Positions 18,430-32,000 of a stretch of 64,000 bases of DNA are shown piece after piece. Position 1 is the stretch's first letter, and the number at the start of each line of letters is the position of its first letter. The notes under the pieces were generated by a model, which saw only the letters and a list, made by a program, of their open reading frames with translations, was not told the DNA's origin and did no database searches. The position numbers and the translations under genes are program-made. This DNA comes from Streptomyces californicus (GTDB lineage: Bacteria > Actinomycetota > Actinomycetes > Streptomycetales > Streptomycetaceae): NCBI RefSeq assembly GCF_000717645.1, contig NZ_JNZZ01000031.1, positions 3,508 to 67,507 of the forward strand, given 5' to 3'.

Positions 18430-19419
18430 ATGAACCTTGCCTCCATTCCCAGTCCGTCGACCGGCGTGATCGAGCTCGGCCCGATCCCGCTCCGCGGCTA
18501 CGCGTTCTGCATCATCATCGGTGTCTTCGTCGCCGTCTGGTTCGGCAACAAGCGCTGGATCGCCCGGGGCGGCAAAGCCGGCACCGTGGCCGACGTCGCC
18601 GTCTGGGCGGTCCCCTTCGGCCTCGTCGGCGGCCGGCTCTACCACGTGATCACCGACTACCAGCTCTACTTCAACGAGGGCGAGAACTGGGTCGACGCCT
18701 TCAAGATCTGGCAGGGCGGCCTCGGAATCTGGGGCGCGATCGCCTTCGGCGCGGTCGGCGCGTGGATCGCCTGCCGCCGCCGGGGCATCCCGCTGCCCGC
18801 CTGGGCCGACGCGCTGGCCCCGGGCATCGCCATCGCCCAGGCCATCGGCCGCTGGGGCAACTGGTTCAACCAGGAGCTGTACGGCAAGCCCACCGATCTG
18901 CCGTGGGCCGTCGAGATCAGCGAGGGCGTGAACCGGGTCGCCGGGACCTACCACCCGACCTTCCTGTACGAATCGCTCTGGTGCGTCGGCGTGGCGCTGC
19001 TGGTCGTCTGGGCCGACCGCCGCTTCCGGCTCGGCCACGGCCGGGCGTTCGCGCTGTACGTCGCGGCCTACTGCGCCGGACGGGCCTGGATCGAGTACAT
19101 GCGGGTCGACGAGGCGCACCACATCCTGGGCCTGCGACTGAACGTGTGGACCGCGATCATCGTCTTCGTGCTGGCCGTCGTCTACATCGTGGTCTCCGCG
19201 AAGATCCGGCCGGGTCGCGAGGAGATCGTCGAGCCGGACCGGGACACCCCGGCGAAGGCGTCCGACGAGGAGGGCTCCGACCCGGACGGACCGGCGAAGA
19301 CGGACGCCGACGAGCGGGACGCCGACGCGAAGAAGGACCCGTTCGCGAAGGACGAGCCGGGCAAGCCGGGCAAGGGCCGCACCGCCGGCAGCACCGAAGC
19401 GGCGGCCGAGAAGAGCTGA
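18430..19419 (+). CDS. lgt: Prolipoprotein diacylglyceryl transferase
   Basis: A 329-aa integral membrane enzyme that attaches diacylglycerol to the lipobox cysteine of prelipoproteins. Family motifs are GPIPLRGYAFCIIIGV near residue 20, VGGRLYHVITDY near 76, GRWGNWFNQELYG near 141 (signature region) and YHPTFLYESLW near 175. Six or seven helices are predicted. The last 70 residues form a charged Asp/Lys/Ala-rich tail. No ribosome site precedes the ATG; a TTGCCG / TAGCGT promoter-like pair ends a few bases upstream, so the mRNA may be nearly leaderless. Confidence 0.95.
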   Translation: MNLASIPSPSTGVIELGPIPLRGYAFCIIIGVFVAVWFGNKRWIARGGKAGTVADVAVWAVPFGLVGGRLYHVITDYQLYFNEGENWVDAFKIWQGGLGIWGAIAFGAVGAWIACRRRGIPLPAWADALAPGIAIAQAIGRWGNWFNQELYGKPTDLPWAVEISEGVNRVAGTYHPTFLYESLWCVGVALLVVWADRRFRLGHGRAFALYVAAYCAGRAWIEYMRVDEAHHILGLRLNVWTAIIVFVLAVVYIVVSAKIRPGREEIVEPDRDTPAKASDEEGSDPDGPAKTDADERDADAKKDPFAKDEPGKPGKGRTAGSTEAAAEKS

Positions 19420-19474
19420 CCGGGCGCCCGGCCGCGCACGGCCGGTCGGCCGCCCCCCCTCCGCACACCTCCCG

Positions 19475-19514
19475 CTCGCCGGGCGGGCCCGTCGTCTCAG
19501 GCCCGCCCGGCGAG
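19475..19514. terminator. Bidirectional terminator made from the end of the CoA-lyase gene
   Basis: CTCGCCGGGCGGGCC (19475-19489) is the perfect 15-base inverse of GGCCCGCCCGGCGAG (19500-19514), with a ten-base spacer that includes the lyase stop codon. The right arm is the last five codons of the lyase gene. It separates the convergent lgt and lyase operons. Confidence 0.8.
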
Positions 19515-20396
19515 TGCGAGCGTCCGGCGGGCGGAGGCCACCACCGCCGCGTCCACGAACCTCCCGTCCGGCAGCGCCAGGGCGCCCTCCTCCACCGCCG
19601 AGGCCGCGACGATCCGCTCGGCCTCCTCCACCTCCCGCGCCGTCGGCAGGTACGCCCGCTCGATCACCTCCAGCTGGCGCGGGTGGATCGCCGCCCGGCC
19701 GAGCATCCCGAGCGCCCGCCCCCGCGCGCACGAGGTCCACAGCCCGTCCAGGTCCCGCACGTCCGGGAACACCGACTGGACCGGCGGCGGAAGGGCCGCC
19801 GCCCGGGCCGCCACCACGACCCGGCCGCGCGAGAAGTCCAGCCCCGCGTCCTCCCGTACGCCCAGATCCGCCCGCAGGTCCGCCTCGCCGAGCGCGATGC
19901 CGTGGACGGCGTGGTGCGCCGAGGCGATCGAGTACGCGTGCTCGATCGCGAGCGCCGACTCCAGCAGCGGATACAGCGGTACGCCCGGGGCCACGGCCGC
20001 CACATGGTGCACCGAGACCGCGTGCGTGATCTTCGGCAGCCGGAACGCGGCCAGCCCCGGCAGCTCCGCCAGCGCCAGGACGTCGTCCTCGCCGTGCACC
20101 CGCACATGGACCGGAACGGCGTCGGGGGCGGCGGTCACCGGGTCGCCGAGGAGCTCGGCGGTGGCGGCCCGCGCGTACTCCTTACGGCCGGGGGCGACGG
20201 CGTCCTCCAGGTCGACGATCACCACGTCGGCCCCCGAGCCCAGCGCCTTGGCCACCACCTCCGGCCGGTCCCCGGGCACGTACAGCCAGGTCAGCGGCGG
20301 TCGTACGGTGTCGGGGCGCGGGTCCTCCGGCAGCGGCGGCAGGGGCGCCGCCGGGTCCTGCGGCCGTGGCGGGAGGGGCGTGTCGCAGCCGGTCAC
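19497..20396 (-). CDS. HpcH/HpaI-family CoA ester lyase (CitE-like)
   Basis: A 299-aa protein of the CitE/malyl-CoA lyase family. Family blocks are LTWLYVPGDRPEVVAKALGSGADVVIVDLEDAV, where the second acidic cluster binds Mg, PLYPLLESALAIEHAY, IALGEADLRADLG, and GRAAIHPRQLEVIERAY. Such enzymes cleave beta-hydroxyacyl-CoA such as malyl- or citramalyl-CoA. It is the last gene of the seven-gene operon, with a GTGA overlap to the CoA-transferase, and the pair could activate and then cleave one acid. The first 25 residues are proline-rich and may be dispensable. Confidence 0.88.
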   Translation of the reverse strand: MTGCDTPLPPRPQDPAAPLPPLPEDPRPDTVRPPLTWLYVPGDRPEVVAKALGSGADVVIVDLEDAVAPGRKEYARAATAELLGDPVTAAPDAVPVHVRVHGEDDVLALAELPGLAAFRLPKITHAVSVHHVAAVAPGVPLYPLLESALAIEHAYSIASAHHAVHGIALGEADLRADLGVREDAGLDFSRGRVVVAARAAALPPPVQSVFPDVRDLDGLWTSCARGRALGMLGRAAIHPRQLEVIERAYLPTAREVEEAERIVAASAVEEGALALPDGRFVDAAVVASARRTLALAGRA

Positions 20397-21592
20397 AGCG
20401 CCCCCTGGTCCCGCAGCGCGGCGATCCGGGACGCCGAGAGGCCGAGCCCGGTCAGGATCTCCTCGGTGTCCGCGCCGTGCGGGCGGCCCGCCCACCGGAT
20501 GCCGCCGGGGGTCCCGGAGAGCCGGAAGAGGACGTTCTGCATCCGCAGCGGCCCCAGCTCCGGGTCGTCGACCTCCGTGAGGGTGCCCAGCGCCCGGTAC
20601 TGCGGGTCCTCCACCACGTCCCGTACGTCGTGGACCGGCGCGACCGCCGCCTCTGCCTTCTCGAAGGCGTCCAGCACCTCGTCGCGGCCGTGCCGGGAGA
20701 TCCAGTGGCCGACCGCCGCGTCCAGCTCCTCGGTGTGCTCGGCCCGGGTGGTCCCCGAACCGAACCAGGGCTCCTCGATGAGCTCGGGGCGGCCCACCAG
20801 GCGCATCACCCGCTCCGCGACGGACTGGGCGGAGGTGGAGACCGCGACCCAGTGGCCGTCGGCGGTGCGGTAGGTGTTGCGCGGGGCGTTGTTGCGCGAG
20901 CGGTTGCCGGTGCGCGGCTGGACGTAACCGAGCTGGTCGTACCAGAGGGGCTGCGGGCCCAGCACGGTGAGGATCGGCTCGATGATCGCCAGGTCCACCA
21001 CCTGCCCCGCGCCGGTTTTCTCCCGCCCGGCGAGCGCCGCCATCACCGCGTACGCCGTCGCCAGCGCCGCGATGGAGTCCGCGAGCCCGAACGGCGGCAG
21101 CGTCGGCGGCCCGTCCGGCTCCCCGGTGATCGCCGCGAAGCCGCTCATCGCCTCGGCCAGCGTCCCGAAGCCGGGGCGGTGCGCGTACGGTCCGAACTGG
21201 CCGAAGCCGGTGACCCGGGCCAGCACCAGGCGCGGGTTGACCGCGTGCAGTTCCTCGGGGCCCAGGCCCCAGCGCTCCAGGGTGCCGGGCCGGAAGTTCT
21301 CGACGACGACGTCGCTCTCGGCGGCCAGCCGCAGAAGGACGTCCCGGCCGCCGGGAGCCGAGAGGTCGAGGGTCAGGGTGCGCTTGTTGCGGCCGAGCAG
21401 CTTCCACCACAGGCCGACCCCGTCCTTGGCGGGCCCGTGCCCGCGCGAGGGGTCCGGCCTGCGGGGGTGCTCGACCTTGATCACGTCGGCGCCGAAGTCC
21501 CCGAGCATGGTGGCGGCGAGGGGGCCGGCGAAGAGGGTGGCGAGGTCGAGGACCTTCAGTCCGGTCAGCGGTCCCGCGGCGGTGTCGTTCAC
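20393..21592 (-). CDS. CaiB/BaiF-family (class III) CoA-transferase
   Basis: A 399-aa class III CoA-transferase. Recognisable blocks are GLKVLDLATLFAGPLAATMLGDFGADVIKVEHP at the N-terminus, WKLLGRNKRTLTLDLS, SDVVVENFRPGTLERWGLG, and the LALAxVTGFGQFGPY region, ending with a second Rossmann-like part. The aspartate that normally forms the acyl anhydride is likely the one in PFGLADSIAAL near residue 170. It is coupled to the ribokinase gene upstream (ATG/TGA overlap) and to the CoA lyase downstream. The acid substrate is unknown. Confidence 0.88.
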   Translation of the reverse strand: MNDTAAGPLTGLKVLDLATLFAGPLAATMLGDFGADVIKVEHPRRPDPSRGHGPAKDGVGLWWKLLGRNKRTLTLDLSAPGGRDVLLRLAAESDVVVENFRPGTLERWGLGPEELHAVNPRLVLARVTGFGQFGPYAHRPGFGTLAEAMSGFAAITGEPDGPPTLPPFGLADSIAALATAYAVMAALAGREKTGAGQVVDLAIIEPILTVLGPQPLWYDQLGYVQPRTGNRSRNNAPRNTYRTADGHWVAVSTSAQSVAERVMRLVGRPELIEEPWFGSGTTRAEHTEELDAAVGHWISRHGRDEVLDAFEKAEAAVAPVHDVRDVVEDPQYRALGTLTEVDDPELGPLRMQNVLFRLSGTPGGIRWAGRPHGADTEEILTGLGLSASRIAALRDQGAL

Positions 21593-22473
21593 GATGCCTC
21601 GATCTCGCTGCGGTAGGGCATGGACGTGGAGGCGCCGGGCTTCTGGACGCAGAGCGCGGCGGCCGACGACGCGAACGCCACGGCCCCGGCAACCGGCCGC
21701 CCCTCGCCGAGCGCCACGGCCAGCGCGCCGACGAAGGTGTCCCCGGCCCCGGTGGTGTCGACGGCCGTCACCGAGGGGGCCTCGAAGAGCACGGGCTCGC
21801 CGCCCCGGGCCGCGTACAGGCAGCCTTTCGCACCGAGCGTGATGATCACCTCGGGGACCTTGCGCAGCAGGATCTGGGCGGCGGCGTGCGGCTCGTCCTG
21901 TCCGGACAGCTCGGCGGCCTCGTGCTCGTTGGGCACCAACAGGTCGATGTGGTCGTAGAGTTCGTCGGTCAGCGGCTGTACGGGGGAAGGCGTCAGGATG
22001 GTCCGCACGCCCTGCGCGTGGGCGGCGCGCGCCCCCTCGACGACGGCGGACAGGGGCAGTTCGAGCTGCATCAGCAGCAGTTCGGAGGCGGCGATCGCCG
22101 CGATCTCCCCGGGGCCGAGCGCGGTGAGAACCCCGTTGGCGCCGGGGACCACCACGATCGCGTTGGACCCGGTGTCGTCCACCACGATGTGCGCGGTGCC
22201 GCTCGGGCCCTCGGCGGTGTGCAGCAGATCGGTGTCCACCCCCGCGTGTTCGAGGCCGTCGCGCAGGAGCGTCCCGTACGCGTCGTCCCCGACCGCGCCG
22301 ATCATCATCACCTCCCCGCCCGCGCGGGCGGCGGCGACGGCCTGGTTGGCGCCCTTGCCGCCGGGGATCGTCCGGAACTCCCGTCCGGTGACGGTCTCGC
22401 CGCGCCCGGGGGCGCGGGCCGTGTAGGCGACGAGGTCCATGTTGGTGCTGCCGAGCACCGCGATGCGGGTCAT
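21589..22473 (-). CDS. rbsK: Ribokinase (PfkB family)
   Basis: A 294-aa PfkB-family sugar kinase with the ribokinase pattern. The N-terminal MTRIAVLGSTNMDLV and TIPGGKGANQAVAAARAG (sugar site) and the C-terminal DTTGAGDTFVGALAVAL with the catalytic Asp in GAGD are all present. LVPNEHEAAEL and ITLGAKGCLYA fit ribokinase better than adenosine or fructose kinases. It follows four ADP-ribosylglycohydrolases with an ATGA overlap, so it could phosphorylate ribose set free from ADP-ribose or nucleosides. No ribose ABC transporter is nearby. Confidence 0.85.
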   Translation of the reverse strand: MTRIAVLGSTNMDLVAYTARAPGRGETVTGREFRTIPGGKGANQAVAAARAGGEVMMIGAVGDDAYGTLLRDGLEHAGVDTDLLHTAEGPSGTAHIVVDDTGSNAIVVVPGANGVLTALGPGEIAAIAASELLLMQLELPLSAVVEGARAAHAQGVRTILTPSPVQPLTDELYDHIDLLVPNEHEAAELSGQDEPHAAAQILLRKVPEVIITLGAKGCLYAARGGEPVLFEAPSVTAVDTTGAGDTFVGALAVALGEGRPVAGAVAFASSAAALCVQKPGASTSMPYRSEIEAS

Positions 22474-23849
22474 GGGCGCAGAGCCTCCTGGTGGGTCAGT
22501 GCGGCGAGGGTGTCGAAACCGACCCGGTCGAAGCCGGGTACGGAGGTGGCGAGCCGGTTCTTCAGCGGGGCGGTCCACCGTTCGGGCAGGGCGTCCGGCC
22601 GGCCGGCCAGCAATCCGGCGAGCGATCCGGCGGTGGCCCCGTTGGAGTCGGTGTCCCAGCCGCCGGAGACCGCGTCGCCGATGGACCGGGTGAAGTCGCC
22701 GTCGGCGTGGGTGAGGGCGGCGGCCAGCAGCGCGGCGTTGGGCAGGACGTGCACCCAGTGGTGGGTGGCGTCGTAGACGGCGTGCAGCCGGTCCACGACG
22801 GTGTCGAACTCCCGCTCCGTACGCGCGGTCCCGACGCCGAGGCGGATCGCGCGGGCGTACCGGGAGCGCGGGGGCACCACCCGCAGCCCGGCGGCCAGGC
22901 AGCCGTGCACATCGCTCTCGCCCCCGGCGGCGACGGCGAGCGCGGCCGCCGTGAACATCGCGCCGTAGACGCCGTTGCCGGTGTGGGTGAGGACCGCGTC
23001 GCGGTGCGCCTGGGCGGCGGCCCCGGCCGGGTCGCCGGGGTGGGTCCAGCCGTGCACGTCGGCCCGGATCTGCGCCCCGATCCACTCCCGGAACGGGTTG
23101 CGGAGGCGGGCGGTCCGCGGCGGTTCGACACCGGCCAGCAGGTTGCCGTACGCGATGCGCTCGGCGGTGAACGCGCGCCCGGCCGGCAGCGCGTCCAGCC
23201 AGAGCCGGGCCAGGTCGGCGGTGGTGAAGGAGCGCCCGTGCCGCTGGAGCAGCAGCAGGGTGAGGAGCGGGTGGTTCAGGTCGTCGTCCTCCGGCATGCC
23301 GTCGATGTTCTCGGCCAGCGAGGTGGGGGCCGAGCGGCGGTTCCAGGGGTGGGCGGCGAGCAGGCCGGCGGGCACGCCCCGGGCGGTGAACCAGGTGGAG
23401 AGCGGCCAGTCGCCGGCGGCCCTGGCCAGTGCGCGGATCCCGTCCAGCGGCAGCTTCTCCACCGGCTTGCCGAGGAGGCAGCCCGCCGCCCGCCCGAGCC
23501 AGGCCGCGTGCAGCCGGTCCCGGCCGACGGTGGGCGCGGCCTCCGGCGGGCCCGGCCAGTGCGGGCAGGCGGCCACGATCGCGTCCAGGTCGGTCGGCTC
23601 GTCGGCGGCCAACGGCGATTCCAGTGCGGCGAGTTCGTCCAGCAGCTCACCGGCCAGCGCCCGCAGGCGCGGCGGTGCGGGCGGCTCGGACGCGCCCGCG
23701 CGGTCCGGGGCGGGACCGCCCCCGGCGGCGTACCACCGTTCCGCGATCTCCCGGGCGTCCCGGCCGTCCTGCGCGGCCTGCCGCAGCTCGTGCCCGACCA
23801 GGTCCTCGGGCTGCACCCAGGTGAGGCGGACGGGCGCGTGGGCGTTCAC
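22470..23849 (-). CDS. Divergent ADP-ribosylglycohydrolase paralogue with N-terminal extension
   Basis: A 459-aa member of the DraG/ARH fold. About 115 extra residues precede the domain. Motif equivalents are AAWLGRAAGCLLGKPVEKLP (GDALG becomes GCLLG), PEDDDLNHPLL in place of TDDT, and a well-kept C-terminal GGWDTDSNGATAGSLAGLLAG, equivalent to the DxDT/S metal motif. The metal site therefore looks largely retained, but the first motif is altered. It overlaps its neighbours by four bases on each side. Substrate could be ADP-ribosyl groups or a ribosyl metabolite. Confidence 0.85.
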   Translation of the reverse strand: MNAHAPVRLTWVQPEDLVGHELRQAAQDGRDAREIAERWYAAGGGPAPDRAGASEPPAPPRLRALAGELLDELAALESPLAADEPTDLDAIVAACPHWPGPPEAAPTVGRDRLHAAWLGRAAGCLLGKPVEKLPLDGIRALARAAGDWPLSTWFTARGVPAGLLAAHPWNRRSAPTSLAENIDGMPEDDDLNHPLLTLLLLQRHGRSFTTADLARLWLDALPAGRAFTAERIAYGNLLAGVEPPRTARLRNPFREWIGAQIRADVHGWTHPGDPAGAAAQAHRDAVLTHTGNGVYGAMFTAAALAVAAGGESDVHGCLAAGLRVVPPRSRYARAIRLGVGTARTEREFDTVVDRLHAVYDATHHWVHVLPNAALLAAALTHADGDFTRSIGDAVSGGWDTDSNGATAGSLAGLLAGRPDALPERWTAPLKNRLATSVPGFDRVGFDTLAALTHQEALRP

Positions 23850-25045
23850 CGCTCACCGGCCAGCGCGGTGAACGCCTCCTCGTGGGCCGCGCGCCGCTCC
23901 AGGTCCCGGGCGAAGACCTCCCGGGCCACCCGCGCCAGCGCCCGCGCCGGGGCCTCCAGGTCCAGCCGGCTCGCCTCCGCGACCGTCGTCGCCCAGTCGT
24001 GCGGCACCTCGCCGCCCAGCGCGCCCGCGAGCGCGCCGCTCATCGTGGCGATGGAGTCGCAGTCGCGCCCGTAGTTCACCGAACCCAGCACCGTACGCCG
24101 GTAGTCGCCGCCCCCGACCAGCAACATCCCCAGGGCGACGGGGAGTTCCTCGATGGCGTGCAGCCGGGAGGGGCGGCGTGCGCCGAGGGCGGGGGAGCGG
24201 TAGTCGGGGCCGACCGTGTCGAAGGGCGTGACGGCCGCGCGCAGCGGGAGCAGCGCCGCCTCGAAGTCGTCGTGGCGCGCGGCGACTTCGCAGACCGCCT
24301 CGATCGCGGCCCGGGTGCCGTCCTTGGCCGGTGCGAGGGCGGCGTCGATCACCGTCTCCGGTGTCGCGCCCGGACGGCACGCGGCGGCGACGGCCGCCGC
24401 GAACACCCCGGCGGCCTCCCTCCCGTACGACGACTGATGCGGGGCGGCGACCTCCAGCGCCTCGGCGTAGGCGGCCTCGGGGTGGCCCGCGTTGACCAGG
24501 CCGACCGGGGCCATGTACATCGCCGCCCCGCAGTTGACGATGTTGCCCGCCCCCGCCTCGCGCGGGTCCACGTGCCCGTAGTGCAGCCGGGCCACGATCC
24601 ACTTCTCCGCCAGGAAGATCCGCTGGAGCGGCAGCGCCTCGGCCTCCAGCTCCGGGATCCAGCGCGGCGCGAGGAGATCGGGGACGAGGTGGTCGGCGAC
24701 GGCGTACGCGTCGAGGTGGTCGCGGACCTTCTCGTAGACGCGGATCAGCGCGTGGGTCATCAAGGTGTCGTCGGTGACGTGCCCGTCGCCCTTGTGGTAC
24801 GGGGCGACGGGGCGCGCGGTGCGCCAGTCGTCGCCGTACCAGGGGCCGACGATCCCGGTCACCCGGCCGCCGTGGCGTTCGGCGATCTGCTCGGGGGTCC
24901 ACCCCTCGACCGGGCCGCCGAGCGCGTCGCCGACGGCGGCGCCGACGAGGGCCCGGGTGATGCGTTCATCGAGTCCGGGCGTGGCGGGGGAGTGCGTCGG
25001 GTGCGAGGGGGCGGGCGCGGCTGCCGTGGCCGTTGTGGGCGTCAT
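23846..25045 (-). CDS. ADP-ribosylglycohydrolase family protein (canonical metal motifs)
   Basis: A 399-aa DraG/ARH-type hydrolase. The three binuclear-metal motifs are intact: GAAVGDALGGPVEGW near residue 40, VTDDTLMTHALI near 90, and YGRDCDSIATMSGALAGALGG near 335. The family cleaves N- or O-ribosyl bonds of ADP-ribose. ATG 25045 is listed; an in-frame GTG at 25060 would add five residues, and neither has a strong ribosome site. Its 5' end overlaps the preceding paralogue by 80 bases, an unusually long coding overlap for this operon. Confidence 0.88.
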   Translation of the reverse strand: MTPTTATAAAPAPSHPTHSPATPGLDERITRALVGAAVGDALGGPVEGWTPEQIAERHGGRVTGIVGPWYGDDWRTARPVAPYHKGDGHVTDDTLMTHALIRVYEKVRDHLDAYAVADHLVPDLLAPRWIPELEAEALPLQRIFLAEKWIVARLHYGHVDPREAGAGNIVNCGAAMYMAPVGLVNAGHPEAAYAEALEVAAPHQSSYGREAAGVFAAAVAAACRPGATPETVIDAALAPAKDGTRAAIEAVCEVAARHDDFEAALLPLRAAVTPFDTVGPDYRSPALGARRPSRLHAIEELPVALGMLLVGGGDYRRTVLGSVNYGRDCDSIATMSGALAGALGGEVPHDWATTVAEASRLDLEAPARALARVAREVFARDLERRAAHEEAFTALAGER

Positions 25046-26216
25046 GCCGGAATTGTCCACCCGAGGTAGCCGGTTCCGTGGCTGCCAGCAGCCCGGCGAG
25101 TTCGATCAGGTCGGTACCGGCGAGCCGGGGCAGGGCGCACCCCGCGAGCGTCCGGCACGCCTCGCGCCAGCCCGCCGGCACGGCGCTGACCGAGCCGATC
25201 GCCCCGGTCAGCGCCCCGGCCAGGGCGGGGGCGGAGTCCGCGACCCGGGAGAGGCAGGCGGCGGCGGGGAGCGCCTGGGCGATCCCGCCCCGGGCGGCGG
25301 TGGTGAGGGCGAGGGCGACGGGGACGGTCTCGGCCGCCGCGATCCCGTAGCTGTAGACGTGGTCCACGATCTGGTGCTCCAGGACCGGGACCAAGGCGAA
25401 CGCCCCGGCCGGTTCGTCCGCGAACTCCCGGGCCAGACGGACCGCGTGCACGGCGTTGCGGGCGATCTCGGTGCCCTCGGGGAGCCGGTCGAGGGCCGCG
25501 TCCACCACGGTGTCGACGTCCGCCCCGGCCAGCGCCACGGCGATCGCGGCGGCCATCGCCCGCGCCCCGTGCACTCCGTCGCCGTCCTGCGTGTAGCGGG
25601 CGTCGAACTCGGCGAGCGCGGCGGCCCCGTCCGGATCGCCCGGGTGGACCACGGCGAGCACGGCCGCCCGGACGCACGCGGCGTCGTCGAAGTAGTGCGG
25701 GTTGTCGTGGCCGGTGGCGGGCGGCCGCAGCCCGGCGGCCAGGTTGCCGAGCCCGGCCCGCACCGAGATCCGGGCGCGCAGCGGGAGCACCGCCGCCTCG
25801 ACCTCGGGGGCCCGCGCGCTGGCGGCGGCGACGGTCGCGGCCAGCGCGTTCCAGGCCCGGTCCACCGCGTCCCGCATCCGGCGCCCGCAGGGGAGCCCCG
25901 CCGCGTCGTCGGCCGCCGCCAGCACCGTACGGGCGGCGAACGCGGCCCACTCGGCGTCGTCGGACGGGCCGAGCCGCAGCGGCTCGGGCGGCTGGTTGAG
26001 CGCGATGGGCACCGGCAGCGTGGTGGTGGCGTTCTGCTCGGCGAAGGTGTCCAGTTCCCGGGTGAGCCGCCGGGTCCACTCGGGCATCCGGGCCGCCCGG
26101 TGCCGGGCGGCGGGCCACCCGGCGGCGTCCCCGGCGGCCAGCCCGAGCAGCAGCCCCTCGATCCGGGCGCGGCGGGAGGGGGCCGGGGCCCCGGTCGCGG
26201 TCCGTGGTGCGGTCAT
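24966..26216 (-). CDS. ADP-ribosylglycohydrolase paralogue with degenerate metal site
   Basis: A 416-aa DraG/ARH-fold protein. The N-terminal GLLLGLAAGDAAGWPAARHR keeps GD, and the second motif is PSDDAEWAAFA instead of TDDT. The third motif, which should be DxDT/S, reads LSRVADSAPALAGALTGAIG, so the first aspartate is replaced by valine. One metal ligand is thus probably missing, which suggests a pseudoenzyme or a different metal count. The last 80 bases overlap the next gene. ATG 26216 overlaps the stop of the first paralogue (ATGA). Confidence 0.85.
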   Translation of the reverse strand: MTAPRTATGAPAPSRRARIEGLLLGLAAGDAAGWPAARHRAARMPEWTRRLTRELDTFAEQNATTTLPVPIALNQPPEPLRLGPSDDAEWAAFAARTVLAAADDAAGLPCGRRMRDAVDRAWNALAATVAAASARAPEVEAAVLPLRARISVRAGLGNLAAGLRPPATGHDNPHYFDDAACVRAAVLAVVHPGDPDGAAALAEFDARYTQDGDGVHGARAMAAAIAVALAGADVDTVVDAALDRLPEGTEIARNAVHAVRLAREFADEPAGAFALVPVLEHQIVDHVYSYGIAAAETVPVALALTTAARGGIAQALPAAACLSRVADSAPALAGALTGAIGSVSAVPAGWREACRTLAGCALPRLAGTDLIELAGLLAATEPATSGGQFRHDAHNGHGSRARPLAPDALPRHARTR

Positions 26217-27409
26217 CGCTCCTCCCCCGCAGCCTCGAAGGAGGCCGCCGCCGACGCCATGTCCCGTACGGCCGAGGGCTCGCGGCCGCCTCCCCGTCCC
26301 CGCGTCGCCCGCGCCGGGGAATCCGCTCCTGGGCCGTCCGGGGTCAGCAGCTCCGCGATGTCCAGCACGTGGTAGCCGCGCATCGAGGGCAGGCAACTGC
26401 CCCGGACCGGGCCGATCGCGCCCGCCCAGTGCGGCGGGACGGCGCTCTCGCCGTTCAGCGCCCCGGCCAGCGCCCCCGCCACCGCCGCCGTCGTGTCCGC
26501 GTCCCGGCCCATGTTGACGGCCGTCAGCACCGCCGCCGGAAAGTCCCCGCGCGCCGCCGTGAACGCCCCGAACGCCAGGCCCACCGCCTCCGGCGCGAGG
26601 TCCGTCCACGGGTAGCCGGCGATCACCACCGCCGAACGCACCGCCCGCTCCATCGTCAGCCGGTCGGGGTAGGGGCGCTGGGCCGCCGCCACCGCCCGGC
26701 GCAGCGACCGAGCCGTCCAGGAGTCCATCGGGACCACCGAGAGCGCGGCCGCGACCACGGAGGCGAGGCCCGAGCCGACCATCGCCGCGGCCACCCCGGC
26801 CGCCACCGCCTGGCCGCCGTAGATGCCCTCGCCCTCGTGGCTGACCCGGCCGTCCACCGCGACCAGCCGGGCCGCCTCGGCGGGACGGCCCGCCGCGAAC
26901 ACCCCGAAGGGGGCCGCCCGCATGGCGAGGCCGTCGCTCCAGGCGTGCCGGTGCTGCGCGGAGATCGGCGCGGCCAGGCCCCGCCGCAGGTTCTCCAGGG
27001 TGCCGCGCTCGCTGAACCCGGCGCCCCGGAACGGGCCCTCGTCCAGGTCGGCGATCCAGTGGTGCCACGCCCGCTCCACATCGGAGACGTCGAGCGCGGA
27101 GCCGTGCCGGGCCAGCAGCAACCCGGAGAAGATCGCGTACTCCGTGTCGTCGGTGCCGGCCGGGTCCTCGCTCACGAACCCCTCGATCCGCCCCCAGCGG
27201 CGGCGGATCTCGGAGGGCCGCAGATTCTCCGCCGGAGCGCCGAGCGCGTCCCCGACCGCCAGCCCCAGCAGCGCGCCCCTGGCCCGGTCCCGGAGGGCCG
27301 CCGTGCTCCCCGTCGTGCCGGGGTGCGCCGCCGTACCCCCGCCGCCGTCCCGCGCGTGCGCCGCGCTGTCGCCGCCCGCTTCCCCGTTCACCGCGTCACC
27401 GTTCACCAC
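26213..27409 (-). CDS. ADP-ribosylglycohydrolase family protein (first gene of operon)
   Basis: A 398-aa DraG/ARH-type hydrolase with complete motifs: GALLGLAVGDALGAPAEN near residue 46, GTDDTEYAIFSG near 85, and MGRDADTTAAVAGALAGALNG near 300. The first 38 residues are a Gly/Ala-rich leader and the last 40 a charged tail. GTG 27409 follows GGAAGG at a good distance. It opens a run of seven coupled minus-strand genes. The upstream region contains two iron-box-like sites shared with the VIT1-type transporter. Confidence 0.88.
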   Translation of the reverse strand: MVNGDAVNGEAGGDSAAHARDGGGGTAAHPGTTGSTAALRDRARGALLGLAVGDALGAPAENLRPSEIRRRWGRIEGFVSEDPAGTDDTEYAIFSGLLLARHGSALDVSDVERAWHHWIADLDEGPFRGAGFSERGTLENLRRGLAAPISAQHRHAWSDGLAMRAAPFGVFAAGRPAEAARLVAVDGRVSHEGEGIYGGQAVAAGVAAAMVGSGLASVVAAALSVVPMDSWTARSLRRAVAAAQRPYPDRLTMERAVRSAVVIAGYPWTDLAPEAVGLAFGAFTAARGDFPAAVLTAVNMGRDADTTAAVAGALAGALNGESAVPPHWAGAIGPVRGSCLPSMRGYHVLDIAELLTPDGPGADSPARATRGRGGGREPSAVRDMASAAASFEAAGEER

Positions 27410-27568
27410 GCCGTCCTTCCGCTCGTCCGGCGGGAGGGGTCCCGGACCCCGGGCGGTGTCCGCGTCCGGGGCCGGGGCCGTCTCCGGGCCCTGCCCGCAT
27501 CTGTGCCACGCGGTGGGCGGGGAGAGGCGGAAAACATGCGGAAAGGGGCCGGTCGGATGACGGCCGAA

Positions 27569-27626
27569 GTAGCTGAGGCTCACCTTTCTTCGCAGGTCAG
27601 AGCGGGTGTAGGGCAGCCTTGCCTTG
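27569..27626. promoter_or_regulatory. Two iron-box-like (DmdR/IdeR) operators in the divergent promoter
   Basis: Bases 27569-27587 read GTAGCTGAGGCTCACCTTT, matching 14 of 19 positions of the DtxR-class iron box TTAGGTTAGGCTCACCTAA. A second site at 27608-27626, GTAGGGCAGCCTTGCCTTG, matches 11 of 19 and keeps the AGG..AGcCT..CCT pattern. Both lie between the ADP-ribosylglycohydrolase operon (159 bases away) and the VIT1-type gene (108 bases away). Matches were made by eye against the published consensus. Confidence 0.55.
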
Positions 27627-27734
27627 CTGGCGGCGACCACTCGGACGGCGTAGTTTGGACTTTGTCGAAAGTTGTACGCAAGGGGGTACGGCGGGTGGCA
27701 GTCCACCCCGCCGTCACGAGGGGAGAGCCGCACC

Positions 27735-28466
27735 GTGGCCATCATCGAGACCGACGCCGTTCTGCACGAGGCGCACCGGGACAACCACACCCACCGGGAT
27801 GTCAACGGCGGCTGGCTGCGTCCCGCCGTCTTCGGCGCGATGGACGGCCTGGTCTCCAACCTCGCCCTGATGACCGGGGTGGCGGGCGGCGCGGTCTCGC
27901 AGCAGACCATCGTGATCACCGGACTCGCGGGGCTCGCGGCCGGGGCCTTCTCCATGGCGGCCGGCGAGTACACCTCCGTCGCCTCCCAGCGCGAGCTGGT
28001 CGAGGCGGAGCTGGACGTCGAGCGCCGCGAACTCCGCAAGCACCCCAAGGACGAGATGGCGGAGCTGGCCGCGCTCTACGAGTCCCGGGGCGTGGACGCC
28101 CCGCTGGCCCGCGAGGTCGCCCGCCAGCTCTCGCGCGATCCCGAGCAGGCGTTGGAGATCCACGCCCGCGAGGAACTGGGCATCGATCCGGGCGACCTGC
28201 CGTCCCCGCTGGTGGCCGCGGTCTCCTCCTTCGGCGCGTTCGCCCTGGGCGCCCTGCTGCCCGTCCTGCCCTACCTCCTGGGTGCGAGCGCCCTGTGGCC
28301 CGCCGTGCTCCTGGCCCTGGTCGGGCTCTTCGCCTGCGGTGCGGTGGTGGCCCGGGTGACCGCCCGCAGCTGGTGGTTCAGCGGACTGCGCCAGCTCGCC
28401 CTCGGCGGTGCGGCGGCGGCGATGACGTACGGACTGGGCACCCTGTTCGGCGTGGCGGTCGGCTGA
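27735..28466 (+). CDS. VIT1/CCC1-family Fe2+/Mn2+ transporter
   Basis: A 243-aa membrane protein of the VIT1/CCC1 family, which moves Fe2+ or Mn2+ out of the cytosol (into vacuoles in plants and yeast, presumably outward in bacteria). The signature GWLRPAVFGAMDGLVSNLALMTGVAGG comprises the end of the cytosolic head and helix 1. SMAAGEYTSVASQRE follows helix 2, then an acidic/charged metal-binding loop (about residues 95-160), then three further helices. GGGAGAG precedes GTG 27735 by 7 bases. Upstream iron-box-like sites suggest iron-dependent control; a role in iron detoxification is inferred. Confidence 0.9.
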   Translation: MAIIETDAVLHEAHRDNHTHRDVNGGWLRPAVFGAMDGLVSNLALMTGVAGGAVSQQTIVITGLAGLAAGAFSMAAGEYTSVASQRELVEAELDVERRELRKHPKDEMAELAALYESRGVDAPLAREVARQLSRDPEQALEIHAREELGIDPGDLPSPLVAAVSSFGAFALGALLPVLPYLLGASALWPAVLLALVGLFACGAVVARVTARSWWFSGLRQLALGGAAAAMTYGLGTLFGVAVG

Positions 28467-29041
28467 CCCCGGCGCGACCCGGCCGCCGCGACCGGGCCGC
28501 CGGGCCGCCGCGTGCGACCGGCGCTGCCCGGCCCACCGCGCGCGTGCGGACCTGACGCGGCCTCGCCGCGTGCGCGCGGGTCCGACGCGGCCCGCCCCGC
28601 TCATGCCGCCCGCCGGCCCGACCGGACCGCCCGGACGGCGCAACCGCCCCGCGACCCCGTGTGACGTACGTCTTGGCTCCTGCCACTGGGCGGGACGGAC
28701 CGCGCCGCCGTAGAATGAGATGCTATGCAGAGCTACACATAAGTAGCCATTACTCGGTGGTTTCGTTTCCTCGGCCGCCGGGCAAGAGCCGTAAGCACCG
28801 CAGGCAACGACGCCTGCTCTCTGCGACTCCCCGGGCGCCGATCGTCCCGACAGCGACCCACTCCTGGTACATCCGGTCACCTCTGCTCACCCAGTCGTTC
28901 CCGGTCCCCATGATGTCCGCATGTTGGAACAAGCCTTCCGCTTCTTGAGAAGCGCCCCATCATGTAACCTGCACGAAATTTCGCAGAGGGCCAACGTCGT
29001 CCCTCGGCACCGCACATGCCACGACGACGACGGGAGAGCCG
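28467..29041 (+). promoter_or_regulatory. 575-bp leader/promoter region of gltB
   Basis: The first 200 bases are very GC-rich with repeated GCGTGCG/GACGCGGCC elements, probably the end of the VIT1-type transcript. From about 28705 the composition is more A+T-rich. TAGAAT at 28711-28716 is a possible -10, followed by a five-codon open frame (28725-28742, MQSYT). A 42-codon frame (28921-29049, [10 protein letters not shown]...) overlaps the gltB start. GTAAC-6-GAAAT at 28964-28979 resembles a GlnR half-site. GGGAGAG at 29032 is the gltB ribosome site. Confidence 0.45.
28964..28979 (+). promoter_or_regulatory. Putative GlnR binding half-site upstream of gltB
   Basis: GTAAC-CTGCAC-GAAAT fits the GlnR a-site/b-site pattern gTnAc-n6-GaAAc at all but the last position. 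It is 63 bases before the gltB ATG. A second a/b pair at the regular 22-bp spacing was not found, so affinity would be moderate. GlnR is the global nitrogen regulator of Streptomyces, and glutamate synthase is a plausible target. Confidence 0.45.
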
Positions 29042-32000
29042 ATGCGTAACCACGCCTGGTCGCCCATGGACGGTCGCCCCGCCCAGCAGGGGATGTACGA
29101 CCCCCGTAACGAGCACGACGCCTGTGGCGTCGGGTTCGTGGCCACTCTGACCGGTGTGGCCAGCCACGAGCTGGTCGAGCAGGCGCTGACCGTGCTCCGC
29201 AATCTCGAACACCGCGGCGCCACCGGTTCCGAGCCCGACTCCGGCGACGGCGCCGGCATCCTCTGCCAGGTCCCCGACGCCTTCCTGCGCGCCGAGACCC
29301 CGTTCGAGCTTCCCGACGCGGGTTCGTACGCCGTCGGCATCGCCTTCCTGCCCGCCGACGGCACCACCGAGGCCGTCCGCACGATCGAGACCATCGCCCG
29401 CGAGGAGGGCCTGACGGTCCTCGGCTGGCGCGACGTCCCGGTCACCCCGGCCCTGCTCGGCAACGGCGCCCGCGCCACCATGCCCGAGTTCCGCCAGGTC
29501 TTCGTCGCCGACGGCGAGTCCTCCGGCATCGTCCTGGACCGCAAGGCGTTCGTCCTGCGCAAGCGCGCCGAGCGCGAGGCCGGAGTGTACTTCCCCTCGC
29601 TCTCCGCCCGCACCCTCGTCTACAAGGGCATGCTCACCACCGGGCAGCTGGAGCCGTTCTTCCCGGACCTCTCCGACCGCCGCTTCGCCTCCACGGTCGC
29701 CCTGGTCCACTCCCGGTTCTCCACCAACACCTTCCCGAGCTGGCCGCTCGCCCACCCGTACCGCTTCGTCGCGCACAACGGCGAGATCAACACGGTCAAG
29801 GGCAACCGCAACTGGATGAAGGCCCGCGAGTCCCAGCTCGCCTCCGAGCTCTTCGGCCCGGCGCAGCTCGACCGCATCTTCCCCGTCTGCACCCCCGACG
29901 CCTCCGACTCCGCTTCCTTCGACGAGGTCCTGGAGCTGCTGCACCTCGGCGGGCGCTCGCTGCCGCACGCGGTGCTGATGATGGTCCCCGAGGCGTGGGA
30001 GAACCACGACTCCATGGACCCGGCCCGGCGCGCGTTCTACCAGTACCACTCCACGATGATGGAGCCCTGGGACGGCCCGGCCTGCGTCACCTTCACCGAC
30101 GGCGTCCAGGTCGGCGCGGTCCTCGACCGCAACGGTCTGCGCCCCGGCCGCTACTGGGTCACCGACGACGGCCTCGTCGTGCTCTCCTCCGAGGTCGGCG
30201 TCCTCGACATCGACCCCGCGAAGGTCGTCCGCAAGGGCCGCCTCCAGCCGGGCCGGATGTTCCTCGTGGACACCGCCGAGCACCGCATCATCGAGGACGA
30301 CGAGATCAAGGCGTCCCTCGCCGCCGAGCAGCCCTACCAGGATTGGCTGGAGACCGGCGAGATCGAGCTGAGCGACCTGCCCGACCGCGAGCACATCGTG
30401 CACACCCACGCCTCGGTCACCCGCCGCCAGCAGACCTTCGGCTACACCGAGGAAGAGCTGCGCGTCATCCTCGCCCCGATGGCCCGCACCGCCGGCGAGC
30501 CCCTCGGCTCCATGGGCACCGACTCGCCGATCGCCGCGCTCTCCGAGCGCCCCCGGCTGCTCTTCGACTACTTCACCCAGCTCTTCGCCCAGGTCACCAA
30601 CCCGCCGCTGGACGCCATCCGCGAGGAGCTGGTCACCTCGCTGCGCTCCTCGCTCGGCCCCCAGGGCAACATCCTGGAGCCGACCGCGGCCGCCTGCCGC
30701 AGCGTCACACTGCCGTTCCCGGTGATCGACAACGACGAGCTCGCCAAGCTGATACACATCAACGCCGACGGCGACATGCCGGGCATGAAGGCCGCCACCC
30801 TCTCCGGCCTCTACCGGGTCAGCGGCGGCGGCGACGCCCTCGCCGCCCGCATCGAGGCCATCTGCGGCGAGGTCGACGCGGCCATAGAGGACGGCGCCCG
30901 CCTGATCGTCCTCTCCGACCGGCACTCCGACGCCGAGCACGCGCCGATCCCCTCGCTGCTGCTCACCTCCGCCGTCCACCACCACCTCATCCGCACCAAG
31001 CAGCGCACCCAGGTGGGTCTGCTGGTCGAGGCCGGGGACGTCCGCGAGGTCCACCACGTCGCCCTGCTCATCGGCTACGGCGCCGCCGCGGTCAACCCGT
31101 ACCTCGCCATGGAGTCCGTCGAGGACCTGGTCCGCGCCGGCACCTTCATCCAGGACGTCGACGCCGAGCAGGCCATCCGGAACCTGATCTACGCGCTCGG
31201 CAAGGGCGTCCTCAAGGTCATGTCCAAGATGGGCATCTCCACCGTCGCCTCCTACCGCGGCGCCCAGGTCTTCGAGGCCGTCGGCCTCGACGAGGCGTTC
31301 GTCGCCACGTACTTCAACGGCACCGCCACCAAGATCGGCGGCGCCGGCCTGGACGTCATCGCCAAGGAGGTCGCCGCCCGGCACACCAAGGCGTACCCGG
31401 CCTCCGGCATCGCCGCGTCCCACCGCGCGCTGGAGATCGGCGGCGAGTACCAGTGGCGGCGCGAGGGCGAACCGCACCTGTTCGACCCGGAGACCGTCTT
31501 CCGCCTCCAGCACGCCACCCGCAACCGGCGCTACGACATCTTCAAGCAGTACACGGACCGGGTGAACGAGCAGTCCGAGCGCCTGATGACGCTCCGCGGC
31601 CTCTTCGGCTTCACCTCCGACCGGGCCCCGATTTCCGTCGACGAGGTCGAGCCCGCCTCCGAGATCGTCAAGCGCTTCTCCACCGGCGCCATGTCGTACG
31701 GCTCCATCTCCCGCGAGGCGCACGAGACGCTCGCCATCGCGATGAACCGGCTCGGCGGCAAGTCCAACACCGGCGAGGGCGGCGAGGACCCGGAGCGCCT
31801 GTACGACCCGGAGCGCCGCTCCTCGATCAAGCAGGTCGCCTCCGGCCGCTTCGGCGTCACCAGCGAGTACCTGGTCAACGCCGACGACATCCAGATCAAG
31901 ATGGCCCAGGGCGCCAAGCCCGGCGAGGGCGGCCAGCTGCCCGGCCACAAGGTCTACCCGTGGGTCGCCAAGACGCGTCACTCGACGCCCGGCGTCGGCC

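Follow-up and report, generated by a model that had tools for sequence, protein, structure and literature searches.

Streptomycetes have been credited with a lively ADP-ribosylation metabolism, based on their numbers of putative DraG-like and macrodomain hydrolases (PMC5087735). In Streptomyces coelicolor, SCO2028, SCO2029 and SCO2030 were listed in 2016 among seven uncharacterised DraG homologues (PMC5087735), and an account from 2022 gives eight homologues of DraG and the ADP-ribosylglycohydrolases (ARH), with SCO2031 added (PMC9411070). Here we describe an operon that carries four such genes, A1 to A4, in a 64,000-nucleotide stretch of Streptomyces californicus DNA (the window; contig NZ_JNZZ01000031.1, positions 3,508 to 67,507), which belongs to a genome of ~7.78 Mb. 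According to the layout of open reading frames, seven genes run on the minus strand between 19497 and 27409 in the order A1-A2-A3-A4-rbsK-caiB-hpcH, and the last three encode a ribokinase (RbsK), a coenzyme A (CoA)-transferase (CaiB) and an acyl-CoA lyase (HpcH). SCO2028 to SCO2031 are probably A1 to A4, an assumption that we base on the consecutive tags, the conserved gene order and the tags of the neighbouring genes.

We think it rather probable that this operon serves the catabolism of a conjugate of ribose (or of a very similar pentofuranose) that the cell imports, and that it is not a system of reversible ADP-ribosylation. The conjugate would be taken up by a LacI-controlled ATP-binding cassette (ABC) importer of the CUT1 type, whose genes adjoin the cluster elsewhere and form a separate locus in the window’s genome. 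The ARH-fold proteins would be glycosidases acting on ribosyl bonds, not ADP-ribosyl-protein hydrolases. A3 would be the constant enzyme, and the paired A1-A2 and A4 would replace or supplement it on other linkages. RbsK, where present, would convert ribose to ribose 5-phosphate, CaiB would load CoA onto the released acid, and HpcH would split the CoA ester into acetyl-CoA and a small oxo-acid; for a citramalate-like or malate-like acid, this oxo-acid would be pyruvate or glyoxylate. The genes of the operon are:

26213..27409, minus strand, A1, ARH-fold (PF03747) hydrolase with intact GDALG, TDDT and DxDT motifs; PF03747, 204.6 bits
24966..26216, minus strand, A2, protein of the ARH fold whose metal motifs are altered (SDDA, xADS); PF03747, 110.2 bits
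23846..25060, minus strand, A3, ARH-fold hydrolase with intact motifs, the constant member; PF03747, 179.1 bits
22470..23849, minus strand, A4, divergent ARH-fold hydrolase (GCLLG, EDDD, DTDS); PF03747, 162.7 bits, residues 115-423
21589..22473, minus strand, RbsK, ribokinase (PfkB), variably present; TIGR02152, 314.3 bits
20393..21592, minus strand, CaiB-type (family III) CoA-transferase (CoA_transf_3); PF02515, 417.5 bits
19497..20396, minus strand, HpcH/CitE-type acyl-CoA C-C lyase (HpcH_HpaI); PF03328, 95.2 bits

All seven proteins score far above their Pfam family cut-offs (the curated values are 26.2 bits for PF03747 and 23.3 bits for PF02515), and Pfam thereby confirms the four ARH-fold genes, the ribokinase, the CoA-transferase and the CoA lyase of the original prediction, which had been made from the letters of the window alone.

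The degradative reading is supported by genomic context: LacI and CUT1 importer genes precede the same genes elsewhere, an orthologous importer co-occurs with the cluster in Streptomyces, and a distant ARH gene has RbsD, a ribokinase-like gene and LacI as neighbours. Such a locus, with LacI, two BPD_transp_1 permeases and an SBP_bac_1 binding protein next to the enzymes, was found in the families labelled f19, f17, f25 and f36 (by Pfam annotation on example loci and by similarity on the remaining ones). A3 (E<=1e-30) is present in 48 of 296 genomes of a class sample that held 28 of the window’s genus: 22 belong to this genus, 19 to f19, four to f17 and one each to f15, f36 and f25, and the loci of all 26 A3-bearing genomes outside the genus were compared. 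In f19, which consists of Jiangella and relatives (including Jiangella alba, J. gansuensis and Haloactinopolyspora alba), every one of the 18 uncut loci contains, in this order, LacI, two permeases, the binding protein, A1, A2, A3, A4, RbsK, CaiB and HpcH, and the gene order is thus conserved outside close relatives, contrary to the refuting condition set with the original prediction; the nineteenth genome has its cluster split over two contigs (L163, L184). The full set is found in two of the four f17 genomes. Of the others, L124 shows LacI, the importer and A1-A4, the remainder not being on the contig, and L183 has its contig end within A4. The single f36 locus (L122) reads caiB-hpcH-LacI-importer-A3-A4-A1-A2 up to the contig end, and the f15 contig (L121) begins with A3 and reads A3-A4-rbsK-inserted gene-caiB-hpcH. 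Small genomes (0.9-2.2 Mb) make up f25, where one locus (L120) has LacI, the importer, A3, A4, the inserted gene, CaiB and HpcH, two (L180, L182) have LacI, the importer, A3, A1, A2, CaiB and HpcH, and L181 stops at a contig edge. Across the uncut loci outside Streptomyces, LacI, the importer, A3, CaiB and HpcH are therefore constant (L124 aside), and A1-A2, A4 and RbsK are variable. The distribution of the system is patchy, since A3 occurs in only 10 of 396 genomes of a phylum sample, every one of the window’s genus, and in 4 of 81 f25 genomes. The one LacI regulator that was scanned has the RbsR models as its best NCBIfam matches, with scores below the cut-offs.

The Streptomyces cluster locus contains neither LacI nor the importer. 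Among 80 Streptomyces loci (one labelled [Kitasatospora]), the best of 580 relatives found and thus a choice that favours close ones, the block gltB-vit1-A1-A2-A3-A4-(rbsK)-caiB-hpcH-lgt is whole in 68 loci and cut by contig ends in the other 12; the gene beyond vit1 is one that we take by eye to be gltB. An orthologous importer is encoded at a separate locus of the window’s genome. Its binding protein, encoded at C1:272604-273896, has 47% identity over 430 query residues (E 5.9e-123, with the next-best match at 1.2e-16), and the adjoining permeases have 64% and 57% identity. When 28 Streptomyces genomes were compared, counting G269 with its partial cluster as cluster-bearing, the binding protein was present in 15 of 22 cluster-bearing and in none of six cluster-free genomes (Fisher p=0.0046, a value that serves as a guide only because genomes of one genus are related and not independent). 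As a control, a second CUT1-type binding protein of the same genome, one of a large family of paralogues, gave 19/22 against 4/6 and no such pattern.

Ribose is proposed as the sugar because the kinase passes one of two ribokinase models and because a distant ARH gene sits with ribose genes. RbsK scores 314.3 bits against TIGR02152 (cut-off 299.65) and is the sole gene of the window’s genome above this cut-off. At L155 (6925-12867), the distant ARH gene (691 residues) lies between a binding-protein gene and a gene for D-ribose pyranase (RbsD; 122.1 bits, cut-off 93), and a ribokinase-like kinase (277.4 bits, below the cut-off of 299.65) and LacI follow; importer genes are present as well. An alternative, unlikely in our estimate, is that an imported glycoconjugate is indeed broken down here, with a sugar other than ribose, ARH-fold glycosidases for that sugar, and a ribokinase that is an add-on or a kinase for another sugar. 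The dispensability of RbsK in Streptomyces and its absence from the minimal f25 clusters would agree with this, as would the usual cargo of CUT1 importers, which is oligosaccharides; the TIGR02152 score of the kinase and the neighbours of the L155 gene argue for ribose.

The inserted gene bears on the same question. It encodes a domain of the formylglycine-enzyme (FGE) type and lies between RbsK and CaiB in 14 of 19 f19 clusters. The modelled protein combines a GH13-like barrel with this domain (mean predicted local distance difference test score, pLDDT, 84.1), and its barrel recalls alpha-glucoside enzymes, which favours another sugar. The model fits glycoside breakdown without naming a sugar, as the attempt to identify the sugar from it returned only a GH13-type barrel with low template-modelling (TM) scores (~0.2-0.5). 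The example at L128 (11547-13463), with its GH13-like barrel and FGE/EgtB-type domain, shows a domain pairing that looks unusual; 2165 relatives were found among 7995 candidates scored, and the named ones among the matches listed are actinobacterial.

Several observations, in addition to the caution attached to the Fisher test, weigh against the ribose-conjugate reading. CUT1 and LacI genes alone do not name ribose, and RbsK remains below the cut-off of a second model, NF008353 (258 bits against 341). Ribokinase as a fixed member of the cluster had to be rejected: of the 68 complete Streptomyces loci, 44 have RbsK and 24 lack it, with a gap of <=390 bases between A4 and caiB in the latter, and it is also missing in three uncut f25 loci. 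Released ribose may for this reason not be the point of the pathway. Nor was RbsK seen at L122, where the contig stops behind A2. CaiB and HpcH fall under every specific NCBIfam cut-off. A LacI orthologue was looked for beside the importer of the window’s genome and none was found there, and 7 of the 22 cluster-bearing Streptomyces genomes are without the binding protein. The inserted GH13-like/FGE protein, finally, was found in 17 genomes of the class sample of 296, of which none belongs to the window’s genus, and its gene is absent from the window’s genome bar a 33-residue match.

In the proposed breakdown of a ribose conjugate, the four ARH-fold proteins would be the glycosidases. Their motifs differ from one to the next in a constant manner. 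The window’s genome contains nine PF03747 stretches, four of these in the operon. GDALG, TDDT and DxDT are the metal-binding motifs of ARH proteins, and their states were counted in 101 loci of Streptomyces, among them that of the window, and in 25 from other families; one genome is present twice (L029, L124), and L029 was left out of the counts. Alignments confirm the complete motifs that had been predicted for A1 and A3. A1 has TDDT in 68/68 Streptomyces and 21/22 other-family alignments and DADT in 69/69 and 22/22, and A3 has TDDT in 100/100 and 25/25. The predicted loss of one Asp in the DxDT motif of A2 also holds: the first Asp is missing in 91/91 Streptomyces sequences and in 21/21 others with letters there (112/112 in total), and the threonines of TDDT are lost besides, the second motif being SDDA in 74/74 Streptomyces and 18/22 other alignments (three have GDDA, one GENI). 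Decay of A2 into a pseudogene was considered and rejected, since the altered states are conserved across Streptomyces and other families; A2 is therefore maintained. For A4, an altered first motif and a 115-residue N-terminal extension had been foreseen, and both are present. GCLLG stands in place of GDALG, EDDD in place of TDDT (99/101 Streptomyces and 25/25 other-family alignments), and the third motif is DTDS. The Pfam domain starts at residue 115, the extension is modelled as helices (mean pLDDT of the A4 model 80.3), and DraG and ARH3 account for most of the top solved-structure matches of this model. Of the two motifs of a classical metal site (TDDT with DxDT/S), A1 and A3 have both, A2 has both altered, and A4 agrees in part.

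A tree of 98 rows, calculated without the four other PF03747 paralogues of the window’s genome, places A1-A4 in four separate clades, each with members from Streptomyces and other families; two deep joins bear a warning that they may be false, and one row with a branch of 3.53 (own_L003) was not used. Recent tandem duplication was rejected as the origin of A1-A4, the four clades being old and each spanning Streptomyces and other families. A1 and A2 are sister clades with a support of 92/78, below the program’s mark for a firm branch. We propose that they probably form one enzyme of two subunits, A2 being the one with a degenerate metal site, because A2 adjoins A1 in all 30 loci where A1 is shown, including three sites (L135, L153, L154) where the pair is away from A3 and has other LacI and permease genes in its vicinity. 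Two further ARH genes in the window’s genome match A1 weakly (30-33%) and were not counted as A1.

Two further loci contain A4-like genes in other surroundings. At L143 (8338-9414) such a gene is near a SIS-domain gene, a possible hint that this branch takes part in amino-sugar metabolism. At L142 (5367-9520) it adjoins a gene of the dihydrodipicolinate-synthase family and an ABC importer of the oligopeptide type, and a ribokinase-like gene is close by.

The original prediction had allowed either the degradation of a ribosyl conjugate or a reversible modification. The first gained support from the importer and LacI context and the second gained none. In that case, ADP-ribosyl groups would be removed from proteins, nucleic acids or small molecules by the ARH-fold proteins, as their family name implies, and the metabolic genes would either recycle what is released or be subject to the control; we consider this quite improbable. 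All four proteins belong to PF03747, SCO2028 to SCO2031 are given as putative ADP-ribosyl hydrolases (PMC5087735, PMC9411070), and another ARH protein of S. coelicolor, SCO5809, is active on ADP-ribosylated RNA phosphate ends, although not on guanosine-modified RNA (PMC11833690, 2025). Against this, purified SCO2028 and SCO2030 had no detectable activity on U-alpha-ADPr, the one substrate in question (PMC13036486, 2026), and none of the four proteins comes near the DraG or Tri1 models. The cut-off of the DraG equivalog TIGR02662 is 337.05 bits, and A1 reaches 77.0, A3 41.2 and A4 17.8, with no match for A2; for Tri1-type immunity to ADP-ribosyltransferases (NF041672, 490 bits) the values are 51.4 for A1 and 29.7 for A3, with no match for A2 and A4. 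Indeed, A1, A3, A4, CaiB and HpcH remain under the cut-off of every NCBIfam model that they match, and A2 matches none. Judged by these models, A1-A4 are members of the ARH fold family that lie outside the DraG and Tri1 families. They are conserved together with LacI, a sugar importer and the CoA enzymes, and no ADP-ribosyltransferase was seen among the neighbours annotated, which are a part of all neighbours.

The two CoA enzymes would deal with the acid half of the ribose conjugate. Enzymes of the CaiB family load carboxylic acids with CoA, and members of the HpcH/CitE family cleave 3-hydroxyacyl-CoA esters. The models for specific CaiB functions (glutarate, mesaconate, formyl-CoA, oxalate, carnitine) are not reached, the best score being 240.4 bits against a cut-off of 750, and HpcH comes closest to RipC, with 140.2 bits (NF038242, cut-off 375), and scores 111.3 bits against CitE (TIGR01588, cut-off 443.4). 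The nearest solved chains to HpcH are 9nzb and 8khl, which bear the name acyl-CoA lyase beta chain; 262 residues align with 9nzb. Since none of the seven operon genes encodes a hydratase, the acid is probably a 3-hydroxy acid already, such as malate or citramalate, and a search for it through the relatives of CaiB and HpcH narrowed it only to a citramalate-like or malate-like compound. These enzymes have no obvious place in a third reading, in which the operon salvages or detoxifies intracellular breakdown products of ADP-ribose, nicotinamide adenine dinucleotide (NAD) or nucleosides. An ARH fold and a ribokinase would both suit a ribosyl product, and E. coli yegTUV unites a predicted nucleoside transporter, an ARH protein and a sugar kinase (PMC10819704); as the presence of LacI and the importer speaks for a substrate from outside the cell, we regard this reading as very improbable.

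The layout of the operon is compact. As predicted, its genes are joined by 4-base overlaps and one long overlap. The former account for five of the six junctions (A1/A2, 26213-26216; A3/A4, 23846-23849; A4/rbsK, 22470-22473; rbsK/caiB, 21589-21592; caiB/hpcH, 20393-20396), and the A2/A3 overlap has 80 bases if A3 starts at ATG 25045 and 95 if it starts at GTG 25060. The long overlap is a local accident and no fixed feature, because 28 of 75 Streptomyces A2 alignments end at query residue 388, 28 residues short. The predicted lack of an internal terminator is in line with a scan that gave 0 sites against 1.4 expected in shuffles, a consensus scan of little power at high GC; a promoter scan, of equally little power in a high-GC actinomycete, gave 0 sites against 0.0 expected. 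No known RNA family reached the gathering threshold in 19300-29100. The operon is flanked by lgt (18430-19419, plus strand) on one side and by a VIT1-family gene on the other, and between the latter and A1 lies its likely promoter region:

27410..27692, no strand, divergent vit1/A1 intergenic region; from the gene layout and blocks conserved in Streptomyces loci

Within this region, two sites resemble an iron-regulator box: 27569-27587 (14/19 bases of the consensus), the top such match across the whole 64-kb window, and 27608-27626 (12/19). Matches of 12 or 13 of 19 bases are present in 47 of 68 Streptomyces vit1/A1 regions, as compared with 19 of 200 shuffles of the window’s region. The VIT1-family transporter may be under the control of these sites, and possibly the operon too. 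A 10-base word at 27622-27631 has counterparts in the upstream regions, with 62 of 69 Streptomyces regions containing it. This strongly conserved word was the only candidate tried for an operator common to the cluster and the separate importer, and a search of the importer loci L171-L179 did not find it.

Among the open-licence papers listed in literature searches, and going by titles and the starts of abstracts, none describes this gene combination as a pathway, and the main text of a paper on LacI regulons is free of the terms ADP-ribosyl, ribosyl, riboside and ribokinase (PMC4052901). It is possible, and we put it forward tentatively, that a branch of the ARH fold consists of riboside glycosidases, that A1-A2 is heteromeric with a second subunit that no longer has its metal site, and that the operon represents a new pathway from a ribose-acid conjugate to ribose 5-phosphate, acetyl-CoA and an oxo-acid. 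If this were true, four of the eight DraG/ARH homologues of S. coelicolor would stand outside ADP-ribosylation and the picture of that metabolism would change; the ARH fold would gain a second role, masked by annotation under the family name; and streptomycetes, Jiangella and its kin and some small-genome f25 relatives would use a novel natural substrate. The locus would then also offer a test system: the operon is clean, the importer comes with its ligand-binding protein, and in the enzyme pair one of the subunits is altered.

Compared with known systems, A1-A4 have their fold in common with DraG, ARH1 and ARH3, and A1 and A3 also the metal-binding motifs. The operon differs from these in scores far under the DraG equivalog cut-off, in its sugar-catabolic neighbourhood, in the altered motifs of A2 and A4, and in that no transferase partner was seen among the annotated neighbours. 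The cluster resembles the rbs operons (RbsK, RbsD, RbsR) in its ribokinase and, in families other than that of Streptomyces, in LacI, for which the best models, below cut-off, are RbsR; its importer of SBP_bac_1 and two BPD_transp_1 proteins is not of the ribose type, and ARH, CaiB and HpcH proteins are added. HpcH belongs to one lyase family with the itaconate lyase RipC and related acyl-CoA lyases and is here paired with a CoA-transferase; it differs in its low score against the RipC model, and there is no hydratase gene in the operon. The E. coli yegTUV operon is similar in that it combines a predicted ARH protein (YegU) with a predicted sugar kinase (YegV) and a predicted nucleoside transporter (YegT) (PMC10819704). 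It has one ARH protein in contrast to four, a nucleoside:H+ symporter in contrast to a CUT1 importer, and a GntR-family regulator (GgaR/YegW) in contrast to LacI, and it is without CaiB or HpcH (PMC10819704).

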